A DNA stretch of 64,000 nt from Vibrio tubiashii ATCC 19109 (GTDB lineage Bacteria > Pseudomonadota > Gammaproteobacteria > Enterobacterales > Vibrionaceae), in the NCBI RefSeq assembly GCF_000772105.1, contig NZ_CP009354.1, positions 806,001-870,000 on the forward strand, in the 5' to 3' direction. Shown here piece by piece: positions 6,381 to 63,886 of the stretch. How positions within the stretch are numbered: position 1 is the stretch's first letter; each line of letters begins with the position of its first letter. Below the pieces are notes generated by a model. The model was given only the letters and a program-made list of their open reading frames with translations. It was not told the DNA's origin and did not search any database. The translations under genes and the position numbers were made by a program.

Positions 6381-6405
6381 TGGTGGAGCTGGCGGGAGTT
6401 GAACC
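6381..6405 (-). other. Probable island attachment site (attL/attR) within ssrA 3' end
   Basis: P4-type integrases next to ssrA recombine at the tRNA-like 3' segment, leaving the gene intact. I found no second copy of this segment in 1-6300, so the other att site must lie left of the window. Exact core limits cannot be set from one side. Confidence 0.4.
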
Positions 6406-6747
6406 CGCGTCCAAAAACCATTCATCATTGGTACTACATGCTTAGTCGATCTTTAAATTCACCAAGTACCTGCGAACCGACACGCTAGTAAATGACTATC
6501 CTGAATTAGAATTCGCCGTTCATCTCTCAGGCGGGAGAATCCGGGCTAGCGCGTTTGGGTTTGATCTCTCGTTGGTCCCCGTCTTACGTGCGGAAGCTAG
6601 GGCGAGAGAGCTCTGAGCAGGTTATTAAGCTGCTAGTGCGTAGTTTTCGTCGTTTGCGACTATTTTTTTGCGGCTTTTTACGTGGCCAACCGCCCCACGG
6701 CATGCACCTCAGACTGCAAAATTCCTGTCGAATCCTAAATCAGCCCC
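6381..6747 (-). ncRNA. ssrA: tmRNA (transfer-messenger RNA)
   Basis: The 5' end GGGGCTG lies at 6747 and the tRNA-like 3' end, closing with GCTCCACCA, at 6381, giving 367 nt. The T-arm GGTTCAACTCC is present. The resume frame GCA AAC GAC GAA AAC TAC GCA CTA GCA GCT TAA encodes the tag ANDENYALAA. tmRNA enters stalled ribosomes with SmpB, adds this degradation tag and frees them. The gene lies 67 bases downstream of smpB on the same strand. Its 3' end faces the integrase, so this end also serves as the probable attachment site of the island at left. Confidence 0.97.
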
Positions 6748-8208: not shown

Positions 8209-8438
8209 GAACGGGCTTCGCCCTATGGACCGCTCCGCTTCTGGATAACGAGATCGGACTTCGTCCTTCCGGAAAGCTAGAGTTGATTTCTCAACCACAG
8301 TGGATCAACTTAGTTTTCCAGTTTTCCAGTTTTCCAGTTTTCCAGTTTTCCAGTTTTCCAGTTTTCCAGTTTTCCAGTTTTCCAGTTTTCCTAGGACGAA
8401 GTCCGTTCCCGCATCCCGTTTCCGTAGCTAGGCGTTCC
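8209..8438 (+). repeat. Composite intergenic repeat, copy 1
   Basis: The head holds small hairpins (GGGC-TTC-GCCC at about 8213, GGAC-TTC-GTCC at about 8252) and the unit TGGATAAC. A GTTGA-TTTC-TCAAC hairpin follows, then an array of GTTTTCCA, and finally an inverted head copy (AGGACGAAGTCCGTTCCC). The element starts four bases after the rnfH stop and lies in the convergent gap rnfH/bamE. Confidence 0.85.
8313..8391 (+). repeat. Tandem array of GTTTTCCA (9 full copies plus a partial)
   Basis: Nine perfect 8-bp units run from 8313 to 8384, then GTTTTCC merges into the inverted head copy. There are no spacers between units. Open frames crossing it encode only short periodic peptides and are not genes. 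Confidence 0.95.
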
Positions 8439-8442
8439 AAAC

Positions 8443-8473
8443 AAAAAAGGGTTGACGTATTACGCCAACCCTT
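8443..8473 (-). terminator. bamE terminator
   Basis: AAGGGTTGACGTA and TACGCCAACCCTT pair and, on the minus strand, are followed by a run of T. Near-identical hairpins follow nadK, rluF and the exported-protein gene ending at 40272. Confidence 0.85.
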
Positions 8474-8480
8474 CAAATCT

Positions 8481-8536
8481 TCTCCAGCTCTCCAGCTCTC
8501 CAGCTCTCCAGCTCTCCAGCTCTCCAGCTCTCCAGC
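8481..8536 (-). repeat. Octamer array in the bamE 3' untranslated region (7 copies)
   Basis: Seven perfect copies of TCTCCAGC (GCTGGAGA in the bamE message) fill the space between the bamE stop codon, two bases away, and the terminator. Confidence 0.95.
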
Positions 8537-8538
8537 TC

Positions 8539-8898
8539 TTAGTTAATACTCTCAAAAAAGTCTTTGCTTGGCGGGAAATCGCCAGCGACATTAACGAGTT
8601 GGCCTTCACCGTTGAAGTCAACGATGAGGTTTTTCTGAATTGAGTCGTTGTGACCTTCGGTATGGTGGTAGATGTAGTACCACGTATCAGGATAACCATT
8701 TTCTACGAGCATAGGTGAGCCCATTACATAACGGACTTGCTCTTTAGTCATACCAAACTTTAATTGCTCTACTGCAGATTGCTCTACGTAGTTGCCTTGG
8801 TTGATATCAATGCGGTATACCAACTTTTCTAATAGCGAGCAGCCTGTCAGCATTGTCATAGCGAGTGGTACAGCGATAAGCCACTTTTTTAATTGCAT
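8539..8898 (-). CDS. bamE: Outer membrane assembly lipoprotein BamE
   Basis: The 119-residue lipoprotein has a signal ending in the lipobox LTGC at about residues 18-21, then the SmpA/OmlA domain: [38 protein letters not shown] and [12 protein letters not shown]. BamE joins BamABCD at the outer membrane and helps insert beta-barrel proteins. I start at the ATG at 8898 (MQLKKW) because the ten extra residues of the longer frame do not fit a signal peptide. Its stop codon abuts an octamer array, which is unusual. It sits between rnfH and recN, as in other vibrios. Confidence 0.95.
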
Positions 8899-10836: not shown

Positions 10837-11083
10837 GCGGGAACGGACTTCGTCCTATGGATCGCTTCGCTGCTGGAAAACGGGATCGAGCTTCGCCCTT
10901 CTGGAAAGCGAGAGTTGACTCCTCAACCACAAAAGAGCAACGTTAGTTACCCAGTTACCCAGTTACCCAGTTACCCAGTTACCCAGTTACCCAGTTACCC
11001 AGTTACCCAGTTACCCAGTTACCCAGTTACCCAGTTACCCAGTTATCCATAGGACGAAGTCCGTTCCCACATCCCGCTTCCTT
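10837..11083 (+). repeat. Composite intergenic repeat, copy 2 (most complete copy)
   Basis: The head begins GCGGGAACGGACTTCGTCC and includes TGGAAAAC and TGGAAAGC. A GTTGA-CTCC-TCAAC hairpin and a GAGCAAC spacer lead to the octamer array, and an inverted head copy ends the element. The two ends carry a perfect 24-bp inverted repeat (10839-10862 and 11045-11068). It lies between the recN promoter and the nadK 3' end. Confidence 0.9.
10946..11049 (+). repeat. Tandem array of GTTACCCA (12 copies) plus one GTTATCCA
   Basis: Twelve identical 8-bp units are followed by one variant unit that belongs to the right terminal inverted repeat. Unit uniformity suggests recent expansion by slippage. Confidence 0.95.
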
Positions 11084-14787: not shown

Positions 14788-14912
14788 TCTGAACACTGAA
14801 GAAATGAAACACCCTAAACCTTGATGAGCGCTTTATCGCATGAAAATAGTATGAAGAAACTCAGCAAGTTTAAAATTAGTTGACGACACTTGTTCTCTGG
14901 AAGAGATAATAA

Positions 14913-15068
14913 TCCAGCTCTCCAGCTCTCCAGCTCTCCAGCTCTCCAGCTCTCCAGCTCTCCAGCTCTCCAGCTCTCCAGCTCTCCAGCTCTCCAGCTC
15001 TCCAGCTCTCCAGCTCTCCAGCTCTCCAGCTCTCCAGCTCTCCAGCTCTCCAGCTCTCCAGCTCTCCA
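14913..15068 (+). repeat. Tandem array of TCCAGCTC, about 19.5 copies, upstream of dnaK
   Basis: Nineteen perfect 8-bp units (14913-15064) and a half unit form the longest array in the window. It ends about 105 bases before the dnaK sigma-32 promoter. Three overlapping open frames cross it on both strands, but they encode only repeats and are not genes. The flanks to 14788 and 15173 hold no other recognisable gene. Confidence 0.96.
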
Positions 15069-15173
15069 AATCTTTTTTAACTTTTTTTCACTTCGTCCCT
15101 TGAAAAGCCATTTGCCGCCCTTATCTATTGGGCATAGAGAAGCAAACATCATTATTTTTGTTTGTGAGCAAGG

Positions 15174-15201
15174 GTTGAAACCCGATTCTCCATCCCCACA
15201 T
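15174..15201 (+). promoter_or_regulatory. Sigma-32 heat-shock promoter of dnaK
   Basis: GTTGAAA (15174-15180), a 13-base spacer and CCCCACAT (15194-15201) fit the RpoH consensus 48 bases before the dnaK ATG. Confidence 0.88.
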
Positions 15202-15248
15202 AGGGGATATAGCAAAACGAAAATAGAAATTTATTCGGAGATAGCCTG

Positions 15249-17168
15249 ATGGGTAAAATCATTGGTATTGACTTAGGTACTACTAACTCATGTGTTGCTG
15301 TACTAGACGGCGACAAACCACGTGTAATTGAAAACGCAGAGGGTGAGCGCACCACTGCATCGGTAATTGGTTACACAGACGGTGAAACGCTAGTAGGTCA
15401 ACCTGCAAAACGTCAAGCAGTTACTAACCCAACTAACACGCTATTTGCAATTAAGCGTCTTATTGGTCGTCGTTTCGAAGACGAAGAAGTTCAGCGCGAC
15501 ATCGAAATCATGCCTTACAAAATCGTTAAGGCTGACAACGGTGATGCTTGGGTAGAAGCGCAAGGCCAGAAAATGGCAGCTCCTCAGGTTTCTGCTGAAA
15601 TCCTAAAGAAAATGAAGAAAACTGCAGAAGACTTCCTAGGTGAGGAAGTAACTGGCGCAGTTATCACAGTACCTGCTTACTTTAACGATGCTCAGCGTCA
15701 AGCAACTAAAGATGCTGGCCGTATCGCAGGTCTAGAAGTTAAACGTATCATCAACGAACCAACAGCTGCAGCTCTAGCATACGGTCTAGACAAGCAAGGC
15801 GGTGACCGCACTATCGCTGTATACGACCTTGGTGGTGGTACATTCGATATCTCTATCATCGAGATTGACGAAGTTGAAGGCGAGAAAACGTTCGAAGTAC
15901 TAGCAACTAACGGTGACACTCACTTAGGTGGTGAAGACTTCGATAACCGCATGATCAACTACCTAGTTGAAGAGTTCAAGAAAGAGCAAGGTATCGATCT
16001 TAAGAACGATCCTCTAGCAATGCAGCGTGTTAAAGAAGCAGCAGAAAAAGCGAAAATTGAGCTTTCTTCTACTTCTCAAACAGACGTAAACCTACCTTAC
16101 GTAACTGCAGATGCGACTGGTCCTAAGCACATGAACGTTAAAGTGACTCGTGCGAAACTAGAATCTCTAGTTGAAGACCTAGTTCAACGTTCTCTTGAGC
16201 CTCTAAAAGTTGCTCTAGCTGACGCAGACCTATCTGTGAACGACATTACTGACGTTATCCTAGTTGGTGGTCAGACTCGTATGCCAATGGTTCAAGCGAA
16301 AGTTGCTGAGTTCTTCGGTAAAGAAGCTCGTAAAGACGTGAACCCTGATGAAGCAGTAGCAATGGGTGCTGCAGTTCAAGGTGGTGTACTTGCTGGTGAT
16401 GTTAAAGATGTACTTCTACTAGACGTTACTCCTCTGTCTCTAGGTATTGAGACTATGGGCGGTGTAATGACTAAGCTAGTTGAGAAGAACACAACTATCC
16501 CAACGAAAGCGAACCAAGTTTTCTCTACAGCAGAAGACAACCAGAATGCGGTTACTATCCACGTTCTTCAAGGTGAGCGTAAGCAGGCGATGTACAACAA
16601 GTCTCTAGGTCAATTCAACCTAGAAGGTATTCAGCCAGCACCACGTGGTATGCCTCAAATCGAAGTAACTTTCGACCTAGATGCGGACGGTATCCTACAC
16701 GTATCTGCGAAAGATAAGTCGACTGGTAAAGAGCAGAAGATCACTATCCAAGCTTCTGGCGGTCTAAGCGACGAAGATATCGAGAAAATGGTACAAGAAG
16801 CAGAAGCTAACAAAGAAGCGGACAAGAAGTTCGAAGAGCTAGCTACTGCACGTAACCAAGCTGACCAAATGATTCACGGTACTCGTAAGCAAGTGGAAGA
16901 AGCAGGTGATGCACTTCCAGCTGACGAGAAAGAGAAGATTGAAGCAGCTATCTCTGAGCTAGAAGAAGCACGTAAGGGCGAAGACAAAGAAGCGATCGAC
17001 GCTAAAGTTCAAGCACTTATGGCAGCAGCTCAAAAGCTAATGGAAATCGCTCAACAGCAAGCTCAAGCACAGCAAGGCGCTGAAGCTGGTGCAGAACAAG
17101 CACAGCCTCAACAAGATGACGTAGTTGATGCTGAGTTTGAAGAAGTTAAGGAAGACGGCAAGAAGTAA
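15249..17168 (+). CDS. dnaK: Molecular chaperone DnaK (Hsp70)
   Basis: The 639-residue Hsp70 opens with the phosphate-binding loop [14 protein letters not shown]. It continues through the ATPase domain ([43 protein letters not shown]), the linker [13 protein letters not shown] near residue 388, the substrate-binding beta domain and helical lid, and a Gln/Ala-rich tail ending near [11 protein letters not shown]. It folds and refolds proteins with DnaJ and GrpE. A sigma-32 promoter lies upstream and GGAG precedes the ATG. Codon use is strongly biased, as in highly expressed genes. It is followed by dnaJ, but a heptamer array separates them. Confidence 0.99.
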
Positions 17169-17265: not shown

Positions 17266-17338
17266 TCTCGAATCTCGAATCTCGAATCTCGAATCTCGAA
17301 TCTCGAATCTCGAATCTCGAATCTCGAATCTCGAATCT
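17266..17338 (+). repeat. Tandem array of TCTCGAA (10 copies)
   Basis: Ten perfect 7-bp units (17266-17335) plus a partial unit fill the dnaK-dnaJ gap. Period and sequence differ from the octamer family. Each unit contains TCGA, so the array is rich in short palindromes. Confidence 0.95.
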
Positions 17339-32497: not shown

Positions 32498-32747
32498 CGG
32501 GAAGCGGGAACGGACTTCGTCCTATGGATCGCTTCGCTGCTGGAAAACGGGATCGGGCTGCGCCCTTGTGGAAAAGAGAGTTGACTCCTCAACCACAACA
32601 GAGCAACTTTAGTTATCCAGTTATCCAGTTATCCAGTTATCCAGTTATCCAGTTATCCAGTTATCCAGTTATCCAGTTATCCAGTTATCCAGTTATCCAG
32701 TTATCCAGTTATCCAGTTATCCAGTTATCCAGTTATCCAGTTATCCG
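32498..32747 (+). repeat. Composite intergenic repeat, copy 3
   Basis: The head (GGAC-TTC-GTCC and GGGC-TGC-GCCC hairpins, TGGAAAAC unit), the GTTGA-CTCC-TCAAC hairpin and the GAGCAAC spacer are nearly the same as copy 2. The array of GTTATCCA follows, with no right-hand inverted head. It lies between purL and a DUF3622 gene, five bases past the purL terminator. Confidence 0.9.
32612..32747 (+). repeat. Tandem array of GTTATCCA (16 copies) plus one GTTATCCG
   Basis: Sixteen identical units and one terminal variant run without spacers. The open frame across it is not a gene. Confidence 0.96.
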
Positions 32748-37110: not shown

Positions 37111-37192
37111 GGAACGGACTTCGTCCTTTAGATCGCTGCGCTGCTGGAAAACGGGAGCGGGCTTCGCCCTGCTAGGGGAAGAGCAAGGTGAT
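37111..37192 (+). repeat. Composite repeat head, copy 4 (no octamer array)
   Basis: GGAACGGACTTCGTCC starts the head, with TGGAAAAC and a GGGC-TTC-GCCC hairpin, then it breaks off (GCTAGGGGAAGAGCAAGG) into an ERIC-like palindrome instead of an octamer array. Confidence 0.85.
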
Positions 37193-37196
37193 ATTT

Positions 37197-37301
37197 CGTC
37201 ATTCCCTAGACTGACGCAGGAAGGAGTAGGGAATCTCAATAAGTCAGCGACTAGCTTGAAGAGATCCCCAACTCGTTCGTACCTCACTCTTGAGGATGAC
37301 A
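37197..37301. repeat. ERIC-like imperfect palindrome, copy 1
   Basis: This element of about 105 bases has ends GTCATTCCCTAGA and its near-complement (TCTTGAGGATGAC). Internally GAGTAGGGAATCTC is complementary to GAGATCCCCAACTC. The whole can fold into one long stem, like enterobacterial ERIC units. Confidence 0.85.
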
Positions 37302-37317
37302 AGCTAACCTTTGAAAT

Positions 37318-37347
37318 AAAAAAGGGTTGGCATTAAGTGCCAACCCT
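37318..37347 (-). terminator. rluF terminator
   Basis: AGGGTTGGCA and TGCCAACCCT form a perfect stem with loop TTAAG, running into TTTTT on the minus strand. Confidence 0.88.
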
Positions 37348-37356
37348 CGAAAAATT

Positions 37357-37404
37357 TCTCCAGCTCTCCAGCTCTCCAGCTCTCCAGCTCTCCAGCTCTC
37401 CAGC
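37357..37404 (-). repeat. Octamer array in the rluF 3' untranslated region (6 copies)
   Basis: Six copies of TCTCCAGC end exactly at the base before the rluF stop codon, so the message reads stop codon then GCTGGAGA repeats, then the terminator. This is the same layout as at bamE. Confidence 0.95.
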
Positions 37405-38439
37405 TTACTTCTTCAAACTCAAAGTGCCGCCAGAGCGTGGTTTTGCAGGGCGCTGTGATTTATCACTGGAAGGCTTATAGAAAGTCTTACCTTTATTTGG
37501 CTTGGCTTTTGAGTCGCTTGAGTTGTTACCACTATCGCGGCCTTTCTTCGAGTTTGGTGCATGGCGGAACTCATCGGCGTTACGGCCTTTAAAAGTACGA
37601 TTCTTTTGATTACGACGCGCTTTAGAGTCTTGGTTTTCTTCGCGGCTATCAAACAGCTTAGCATCAGTCGCTTTGCGAATGCGTTTACCCTTGCTATCTA
37701 CTTTGGATGCCTCTTCAGTGCCGCTAGAGTCTTCACACATTACCAGAATCTCGGCTACTTCCGCATCTGTTAGGTAACGCCATTGTCCATTAGGAATCCC
37801 ATCAAGCGAGATGTTCATAATGCGTACACGGCGAAGCTTGAATACTTCATAGCCTAATGCTTCACACATACGACGGATTTGGCGGTTGAGACCTTGAGTA
37901 AGCACAATGCGGAACGAGAATTTAGTCTCTTTAGTCACAGTACAAGGAAGAGTGATGGTATCGAGGATATTCACCCCTGAAGACATCTGCTTAATAAACT
38001 CTTCAGTGATCGGCTTATCTACGCGAACCACATACTCTTTTTCGTGGTTATTACCGGCGCGAAGAATCTTGTTTACGATATCGCCGTCGTTGGTTAAGAA
38101 GATCAACCCGTCTGAAGGTTTGTCTAAGCGACCAATCGGGAAAATACGTTTCTTGTGGCCGATGAAGTCAACGATATTACCCGGAATATCACGTTCTGTG
38201 GTACAGGTAATACCCGTCGGCTTATTGAGTGCGATGTAAACAGGTTTATCAGTGGCAGCTGCGATTGGCTTATCATCAACTCGGACGTCATCACCTAGCT
38301 GAACCTTGGTGCCCATTTCAGGTACTTTACCATTAATGGTGACGCGGCCTTGCTCGATGAGGCGGTCAGCTTCACGGCGTGAGCAAAAACCTGTTTCGCT
38401 GATAAACTTATTGAGGCGTTTAGCGTTATCTTGTGACAT
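37405..38439 (-). CDS. rluF: 23S rRNA pseudouridine(2604) synthase RluF
   Basis: The 344-residue enzyme has an N-terminal S4 RNA-binding domain ([20 protein letters not shown]), the RsuA-type catalytic segment [19 protein letters not shown] with the catalytic Asp, and [19 protein letters not shown]. Together with [17 protein letters not shown] it matches RluF. It makes pseudouridine in 23S rRNA (2604, partly 2605). The C-terminal 110 residues are a disordered Lys/Arg/Ser-rich extension ([19 protein letters not shown]), longer than in E. coli RluF. An octamer array abuts its stop. Confidence 0.93.
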
Positions 38440-39772: not shown

Positions 39773-39849
<77 letters not shown>

Positions 39850-39896: not shown

Positions 39897-40102
39897 GGAA
39901 CGGGCTACGCCCTATGGAAAGCGGGAACGGACTGCGTCCTAAGGAACGCTGCGCTTTTGGAAAATGGGATCGGGCTGCGCCCTGCTGGACAACTAGAATT
40001 GACTCCGGAATAGAAAGTGGAGCAGATTTAGTTATCCAGTTATCCAGTTATCCAGTTATCCAGTTATCCAGTTATCCAGTTATCCAGTTATCCAGTTATC
40101 CG
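39897..40102 (+). repeat. Composite intergenic repeat, copy 5
   Basis: Two head modules stand in tandem (GGGC-TAC-GCCC, TGGAAAGC, GGAC-TGC-GTCC, TGGAAAAT, GGGC-TGC-GCCC, TGGACAAC). A decayed spacer (GAATTGACTCCGGAAT) and the octamer array follow. It runs directly into an ERIC-like palindrome, in the convergent gap tRNA-Pro/exported protein. Confidence 0.88.
40031..40102 (+). repeat. Tandem array of GTTATCCA (8 copies) plus one GTTATCCG
   Basis: Eight perfect units and a terminal GTTATCCG; the same terminal variant ends the array at 32747. Here the last two bases overlap the start of the ERIC-like element. Confidence 0.95.
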
Positions 40103-40205
40103 TCATTCCCTAGAGTGACGAAGGAAGGAGTAGGGAATCTCCATGAGTCATCGACTTGCTTTAAGAGATCCCCAACTCACTCATTCTTCGCTCTTGAGGA
40201 TGACA
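40101..40205. repeat. ERIC-like imperfect palindrome, copy 2
   Basis: It has the same 105-base structure and ends as the element at 37197, with GTCATTCCCTAGAGTGACGA on the left and CTCTTGAGGATGACA on the right. Confidence 0.88.
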
Positions 40206-40222
40206 GCTTAATTTATTGAAAT

Positions 40223-61845: not shown

Positions 61846-62055
61846 GGAACGGGCTGCGCCCTTCGGGAACGGACTTCGTCCTATGGATAACTGGATAACT
61901 GGATAACTGGATAACTGGATAACTGGATAACTGGATAACTAAAATTGCTCCGTCATAGTTTAGTTGTCAACTCTAGCTCTCTAGAAGGGTGAAGCCCGAT
62001 CCCGCTTTCCATAGCGCAGCGTTCCCGCTCTCTATAGGACTAAGTCCGTTCCCGC
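61846..62055 (-). repeat. Composite intergenic repeat, copy 6, inverted
   Basis: Read on the minus strand it starts GCGGGAACGGACTTAGTCC one base after the DUF1853 gene stop, then heads with GCGCTGCG... and TGGAAAGC, GGGC-TTC-ACCC, a decayed GTTGAC spacer and GAGCAATTTTA. The GTTATCCA array and inverted head copies end it. Its arrangement mirrors copies 2 and 3. Confidence 0.88.
61884..61939 (-). repeat. Tandem array of GTTATCCA, 7 copies (TGGATAAC on the plus strand)
   Basis: Seven perfect units; the opposite strand orientation agrees with the inverted element around it. Confidence 0.95.
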
Positions 62056-63691: not shown

Positions 63692-63770
63692 AGTGGGAAC
63701 GGACTGCGTCCTATGGAACGCTGCGCTTTTGGAAAACGGGATCGGGCTTCGCCCTGCGAGAGAAAAGCTC
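63692..63770 (+). repeat. Composite repeat head, copy 7 (no octamer array)
   Basis: GTGGGAACGGACTGCGTCC starts seven bases after the ybgI stop. TGGAAAAC and a GGGC-TTC-GCCC hairpin follow, then it gives way to an ERIC-like palindrome, as in copy 4. Confidence 0.85.
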
Positions 63771-63775
63771 GTTTT

Positions 63776-63874
63776 TCCATAGAGTGACGAAGGAGCGAGT
63801 AGGGAATCTCACACGGTGATCTACTCGCTAGAAGAGATCCCCAACTCACTCGTGCCTCGTTCTTGAGGATGACA
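63776..63874. repeat. ERIC-like imperfect palindrome, copy 3
   Basis: It resembles the elements at 37197 and 40101 (GAGTGACGAAGGAGCGAGTA, GAGATCCCCAACTCACTC, TTGAGGATGAC), but its left end has lost GTCATTCCC. Confidence 0.82.
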
Positions 63875-63886
63875 ACTAATCTAATA

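Follow-up and report, generated by a model that had tools for sequence, protein, structure and literature searches.

The element at 10839-11068 of the window – the whole 64-kb stretch of Vibrio tubiashii DNA analysed here, corresponding to C1:806001-870000 of a 5.54-Mb, six-contig genome (G000) – belongs to a dispersed family of intergenic repeats whose tandem arrays of short units are polarised with respect to replication and turn over at sites that are themselves kept. We favour, at somewhat better than even confidence, the explanation that the family is an ancient REP-like repeat of intergenic gaps, inherited vertically within a Vibrio clade, with arrays that would lengthen through slippage on the lagging strand next to a hairpin seed.

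The element reads, in order, as a head of hairpins with TGGAAAAC/TGGAAAGC linkers, GTTGACTCCTCAAC, a GAGCAAC spacer, twelve copies of GTTACCCA, one of GTTATCCA and an inverted head, with a GTTGA-loop-TCAAC hairpin between the head and the spacer. The head (10839..10902, plus strand, recognised from sequence and genome repeats) comprises the hairpin GGAC-TTC-GTCC, CGCTTCGCT, a degenerate GAGCTTCGCCC hairpin and the TGGAAAAC linker, and is followed on the same strand by a seed, or S, module that ends in the first array unit (10903..10952; 28-copy alignment, folds of five other copies and pair counts). The octamer array, twelve units of AGTTACCC and a last one of AGTTATCC, occupies 10945..11049 on the plus strand according to TRF (unit AGTTACCC, 13.1 copies) and the comparison with a sister genome. 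An inverted head unit on the minus strand (11045..11068) closes the element, the outer 24 bases at 10839-10862 and 11045-11068 being perfectly complementary by sequence and fold. This agrees with the first-pass annotation, which had described a composite with perfect 24-bp terminal inverted repeats around a 12-unit octamer array, and reading also confirmed its claim that the same modular order recurs at 8209, 32498 and 39897 and, inverted, at 61846. As single-stranded DNA the whole element folds with z = -5.5 on the plus strand and -6.5 on the minus strand, none of 200 shuffles being as good; the outer 24-bp arms are the main source of this stability, and the head with three units folded alone does no better than shuffles (z = 0.28). 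The absence of coding capacity noted earlier also holds, as no frame of at least 80 aa overlaps 10839-11068, and a coding origin of the element is thereby rejected or weakened; mechanical frames do overlap other arrays (8283-8546, 14814-15215, 14890-15249 and 39914-40219). At the gathering score Rfam identifies within the window only a tmRNA gene (6381-6747, minus strand) and one tRNA gene (39773-39846, plus strand); with no match at 10839-11068, a known structured RNA is rejected or weakened as the identity of the element.

A 24-base head pattern with up to three mismatches matches the window eight times against an expectation of 0.00, and the octamer arrays there are all versions of AGYTNYCC: AGTTATCC, AGTTTTCC, AGTTACCC and AGCTCTCC. 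Plus-strand composites lie at 8209..8411 (array AGTTTTCC x10 at 8312-8391; TRF, reading and relatives), at 32505..32746 (array AGTTATCC x17 at 32611-32746; TRF, reading and the sister genome) and at 39897..40205 (array AGTTATCC x9 at 40030-40101, then an ERIC-like unit at 40102-40205), and the inverted composite on the minus strand spans 61846..62054 with its array at 61884-61940 (reading and the sister genome). TRF also reports four arrays missing from the first-pass list, at 8481, 14913, 17266 and 37357. The first, on the plus strand within 8444..8539, is a TCTCCAGC x7.4 array (8481-8539) that follows a terminator-type seed and ends at the stop of a minus-strand frame. The second, at 14880..15068 on the plus strand (TRF and reading), consists of a third type of seed (ACTTGTTCTCTGGAAGAGATAATAA) and an array of TCCAGCTC x19.5 (14913-15068); this long AGCTCTCC array lies upstream of a 639-aa frame, directly after a TTGAC...GATAAT stretch that we take to be promoter-like, and the ACTTGTTCTCTGGAAGAGATAATAA motif is seen again at arrays 264603, 2725601 and 3085121 and in relatives. 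The third is a plus-strand heptamer array, TCTCGAA x10.4 (x7.4 in the sister genome), at 17266..17338, with no strict head motif within 400 bp. The fourth (37357-37405, TCTCCAGC x6.1) ends a plus-strand series at 37111..37405 of head, ERIC-like unit (37198-37302), terminator and array, so that of the two copies previously called head-only, the one at 37111 loses that description; the one at 63692 (site 63694..63875, plus strand; pattern match and reading) is a head with an ERIC-like unit (about 63775-63875) and is array-free. The same site in the relative G065 contains a TCCCGCA heptamer array.

Contig C1 is 3.29 Mb long and starts at dnaA, and the GC skew of sampled stretches flips sign near 1.6 Mb; for these reasons we take the plus strand of the right arm and the minus strand of the left arm as lagging-strand templates. 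A query of head plus spacer, with 40 of the 65 first-look candidates scored, has at least 52 matches in its own genome at E<=0.1, a number that is not a census. All of them lie on C1, on the plus strand from 0.12-1.27 Mb and on the minus strand from 2.11-3.20 Mb, the exceptions being the window's inverted copy and short inverted units. An array-start pattern, which misses arrays opening with a partial unit, occurs at 33 places in the whole genome, three of them on C2, and its reversed control at none; 29 of the 30 places on C1 have the lagging-template orientation, and none of the 30 falls within 1.27-2.11 Mb, a 0.84-Mb stretch around the terminus (P about 1e-4).

The same polarity is seen in 62 tandem arrays collected in G000, a set gathered mostly around heads and pattern matches rather than a random sample, in which two arrays (115748/115899 and 3248465/3248517) are counted as two pieces each. 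Of the 49 arrays on C1 with strict AGYTNYCC units, 48 have them on the template of the lagging strand, and on C2 such units run forward in two arrays and in reverse in one; ten of the 62 arrays are without a strict unit. Strict head motifs within 400 bp are commoner on the fork-upstream side in 50 of the 51 arrays that have any – including the reversed copy in the window, two of whose hairpins are still fork-upstream – and equal in the other one. Headless arrays of the strict unit on C1, with no strict motif within 400 bp, keep the orientation in four cases out of four (110001, 174573, 820913 and 881307). The first-pass view of a REP/BIME-like multi-copy repeat with an unusual tandem core is supported, and that of a self-contained mobile unit with terminal inverted repeats as its boundaries is not supported: a strict head motif lies within 400 bp on the far side of only 15 of the 62 arrays, and 11 have none on either side.

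Gene direction can be rejected as the cause of the polarity. Using frames called by a simple longest-frame rule, 39 of the 62 arrays lie in convergent gaps, 11 in (+,+), 9 in (-,-) and 3 in divergent gaps; orientation is the same in (+,+) and (-,-) gaps, and in the symmetric, convergent gaps 31 of 32 strict arrays have the replication orientation. Regional samples, scored for units of 5-12 bases in three copies, yielded neither tandem arrays nor head hairpins in 400 kb of spaced stretches around the terminus; one 6-mer array, and neither 7-8-mer arrays nor head hairpins, in 400 kb of C2; and 13 tandem rows in 464 kb of the arms including the dense window, 12 of them 7-8-mers and 9 of those in the window. 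Because the arms outside the window gave only 3 in 400 kb, the whole-genome array-start pattern is the stronger regional evidence. Unit type also differs between the arms, with AGTTCTCC in 8 of 24 left-arm against 0 of 32 right-arm octamer arrays on C1, a bias that hints at copying between neighbouring arrays.

A seed of one of three kinds precedes 53 of the 62 arrays; a rough classifier, which mislabels some of them, assigns 26 to the S module, 22 to terminators and 5 to the third motif, with 9 unclassed. In some S modules the first array unit forms the end of the 3' arm of a hairpin, and among five copies folded the best has z = -5.6 and two are near 0, no better than shuffles. Over 28 aligned copies 85% of the cells of this hairpin pair, compared with 31-52% when slid, but the same alignment has no covariation beyond shuffles; the pairing may therefore reflect shared descent, and maintenance of the hairpin by selection is rejected or at least weakened. 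The two edges of the arrays differ. Near-match units continue past the perfect array on the far side in seven and on the seed side in none of 61 G000 arrays (P = 0.016 in a symmetric test; one of the seven is the reversed C2 array), and in the sister genome G069 on the far side in four and on the seed side in one of 33, the latter case consisting of a single array that a variant unit interrupts. An asymmetry in flank folding energy is weak, the 70 nt on the side of the seed forming the more stable of the two folds in only 37 of 62 arrays.

Comparison with G069, which is about 93-95% identical to most of the window and 86% identical over its last 3.8 kb, reveals turnover of arrays at kept sites. 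The G069 stretches cover part of the G000 sites, and among the 21 array pairs that could be aligned 19 differ by at least one unit, lengths being equal at C1:949725 and C1:838611. Five sites carry another unit in G069. At C1:816945, the element at 10839-11068, G000 has twelve AGTTACCC units and, at the far edge, a single AGTTATCC, and G069 has AGTTATCC x10, together with an adjacent TCTCCAGC array found in G069 only. At C1:843357 (window 37357) the content from the ERIC-like unit to the array is replaced, with AGCTCTCC in G000 and AGTTATCC in G069, where the gap equivalent to 37111-37405 holds the spacer and AGTTATCC x8. The array of the composite at window 39897 (C1:846030) is AGTTATCC in G000 versus AGTTTTCT units in G069, and AGTTCTCC at C1:2210554 and CGTTATCC at C1:2570997 both correspond to AGTTATCC in G069. 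At C1:980253 an array in G000 is matched by none in G069. In an alignment read by eye, 61846-62054 has the G069 order with its inside flipped between inverted head units, and the sole reversed strict array on C1 therefore appears to be an inversion relative to G069.

Beyond the sister genome, a genus-wide search of the kind that the first-pass annotation had proposed finds the head not only outside the window in its own genome but in 26 of the 196 genomes of the genus (E<=1e-4), with at most four candidates scored per genome and several matches extending over only about 30-40 bases; octamer array starts are found in 7 of the 196. At 78 of 80 named nadK loci recN was found, and at none of the 80 was there an AGYTNYCC array of three units. 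The recN-nadK gaps of other named species (23 whole and 9 represented by their first 200 bases) are without the element, although head remnants are present in two of the loci (L072 and L073), and in G063 the gap has a head without spacer or array; the junctions of the element-free gaps are too diverged for reading a target duplication. Sixteen of 22 loci from other species (G020, G063, G129, G119, G187, G189 and G065) align to G000 sites at about 71-93%, from which it follows that the sites are old and the arrays in them young. C1:529046 has AGTTCTCC in G020 versus AGTTATCC in G000 and G069, C1:434336 has AGTTCTCC in G129 versus AGCTCTCC in G000, and at C1:949725 G129 has about one and a half units and G000 and G069 nine; at C1:814312 (window 8312) AGTTTTCC is the unit in four species, G000, G069, G020 and G063.

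Relatives also contain 7-mer arrays after similar seeds. TCTCGNN array starts occur in 10 of 14 genomes searched, the reversed control giving one in G017 and three in G003. On C1, arrays of TCTCGAA (13), TCTCGCT (7) and TCTCGAT (1) from eight other Vibrio genomes follow the fork direction in 21 of 21 cases, and arrays of TCTCGCA and TCTCGTA do so in 9 of 15, giving 30 of 36 for all heptamers, counts that are less independent than they appear since some sites are common by descent. Orientation was assigned with the origin at dnaA and the terminus at the mid-point of the contig, in G009 and G017 without the length of C1, and the G069 contig was identified by comparison with G000. We note that six TCTCGTA/TCTCGCA arrays, among those on C1 of G072, G175, G031 and G017, run against the replication orientation, and that arrays of these two units may be a different class; two further heptamer arrays lie on C2.

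How might such arrays arise? In E. coli, slippage at hairpins on the lagging strand is an established process. In the explanation we favour, REP-like head hairpins lie beside a short seed – S module, terminator hairpin or third motif – and the 7-8-bp array begins immediately 3' of that seed on the template of the lagging strand; the lagging-strand polymerase would meet the array first and the seed and head hairpins next. A pause at these hairpins, with the nascent 3' end still within the array, would allow that end to slip back by whole units, and the array to grow or shrink; homogenisation would proceed from the seed side, leaving older units at the far end. This pause-and-slip step, which we infer, would account for the fixed polarity, the hypervariable copy number, the sharp seed-side edge, the change of unit at kept sites and the variant units at the far end. 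It does not predict the absence of arrays from the terminus or their scarcity on C2, nor does it explain the likeness of the switched octamer units, the arm bias of AGTTCTCC or the first spread of the heads. Loss of the hairpin nuclease SbcCD is rejected or weakened as a contributor, SbcD – the one component searched for – being found in eight of eight genomes.

An alternative that we regard as unlikely is that the heads, with seed and array, spread as single-strand mobile elements in the manner of IS200/IS605 or REP/REPIN sequences, mobilised by a Y1 transposase acting on single-stranded lagging-strand template, which would fix their orientation and make the arrays a by-product. The orientation fits insertion into the lagging-strand template, and in P. 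fluorescens SBW25 the two sides of the genome carry tandem REP arrays in forward and in reverse orientation, respectively (PMC3116915). A search of 11 genomes for the Y1_Tnp family gave matches in four: G071 (11), G119 (2) and G187 (1), all of which have head matches and in which the identification is at family level only, RAYT or otherwise, and the genome studied here, with only a 72-position match. The latter is a fragment at C1:152932-153147 on the minus strand, the sole such match in this genome. However, Y1_Tnp has no match in the head-rich genomes G020, G063, G069, G129 and G192 (39-72 first-look head candidates per genome) or in G189 or G065; headless strict arrays on C1 are oriented nonetheless (four of four), sites are common to several species, and the diverged recN-nadK junctions demonstrate no target duplication. 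With Y1_Tnp absent from five head-rich relatives and present in three others, Y1/RAYT mobilisation is rejected or weakened, as is spread on plasmids or phages, since the plasmid and phage collections have no match to the repeat.

It is improbable, in our estimation, that the arrays serve transcription, as Rho-loading tracts or as spacers that stop read-through between convergent genes. C-containing, G-poor arrays resemble rut tracts, and the array strand here has one G per 8 bases; 39 of 62 arrays are between convergent frames, 16 of these ending within three bases of the frame that faces the fork. A role in the transcript should track gene direction, yet the 11 (+,+) and 9 (-,-) arrays keep the replication orientation, and array length differs widely between sister genomes. 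We similarly give little weight to a dedicated lagging-strand process that would write and rewrite the C1 arrays from a restricted set of units (AGYTNYCY, and TCTCGNN in relatives) and copy them between sites on the same arm, marking the arms of C1 with replication-oriented, terminus-excluded arrays. Least probable of all is a role as chromosome landmarks, to which a protein with a part in organising or segregating chromosome 1 would bind and for which SlmA or FtsK sites are a partial parallel: it would suit the strict polarity, the exclusion from 0.84 Mb around the terminus (0 of 30 C1 pattern matches, P about 1e-4), the few matches on C2 (3 of 33) and the 400-kb samples from the terminus (free of arrays and head hairpins) and from C2 (free of octamer and heptamer arrays and of head hairpins), but only 7 of the 196 genomes of the genus have octamer array starts, sister genomes differ in unit and copy number, and a reversed copy is tolerated.

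With dozens of arrays sharing a common unit, seeds and fork polarity, the family is a natural experiment on strand-specific repeat expansion, in which homologous sites in relatives display length change, unit replacement, loss and inversion. If lagging-strand hairpin slippage is the true explanation, the direction of growth of bacterial microsatellites can be tested directly at these loci; if it is false, something particular to chromosome 1 writes repeats. The loci could also be used as typing markers for the clade. Among the papers listed by searches of the open-access literature, no title or abstract opening describes these arrays, which does not prove that no such description exists.

Among known systems, the REP, BIME and REPIN sequences of E. 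coli and Pseudomonas are alike in being short intergenic hairpins present in tens of copies, some as inverted pairs, and the family has the multi-copy short intergenic palindromes that characterise them, with at least 52 head-plus-spacer matches, all on C1. It differs in the sequence of the hairpin and in having a 7-8-bp satellite on one fixed side. REP hairpins are preceded on their 5' side by a conserved tetranucleotide, for instance GTAG; the bases before the head hairpin here are GGGAAC/GGGATC. We do not file the family under REP/RAYT because five head-rich relatives, the sister among them, lack the Y1 transposase expected there, and the genome studied here has the 72-position fragment only. 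IS200/IS605 elements prefer the lagging-strand template, but the sister and other head-rich relatives have no matching transposase and no ends of the IS200/IS605 kind were identified. Terminal inverted repeats like those of MITEs are present at 10839-11068, but with far-side strict head motifs at only 15 of 62 arrays the inverted ends are not regular, and we do not file the family there either. The neighbouring unit GTCATTCC...GGATGAC, which we take to be ERIC-like, shares several gaps with heads (37198-37302, 40102-40205 and about 63775-63875 in the window), but the head and arrays are other sequences; the genome has 18 copies of its core, GAGATCCCCAACTC, and 15 of the 17 on C1 share the replication orientation, a less strict polarity than that of the arrays. 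A V. cholerae ERIC family is tabulated in PMC2267715. Tandem REP arrays of P. fluorescens SBW25, oriented oppositely on either side of the genome (PMC3116915), are the nearest precedent that we met.

VNTR loci, which are used in MLVA typing of V. cholerae, are likewise short perfect tandem units that vary in copy number between relatives, as do 19 of the 21 array pairs here. The present arrays differ from typical VNTRs or minisatellites in that many are dispersed and share one degenerate unit, one fork polarity and defined seeds, and in that whole arrays change unit; they behave like a hairpin-seeded VNTR on a REP-like repeat.
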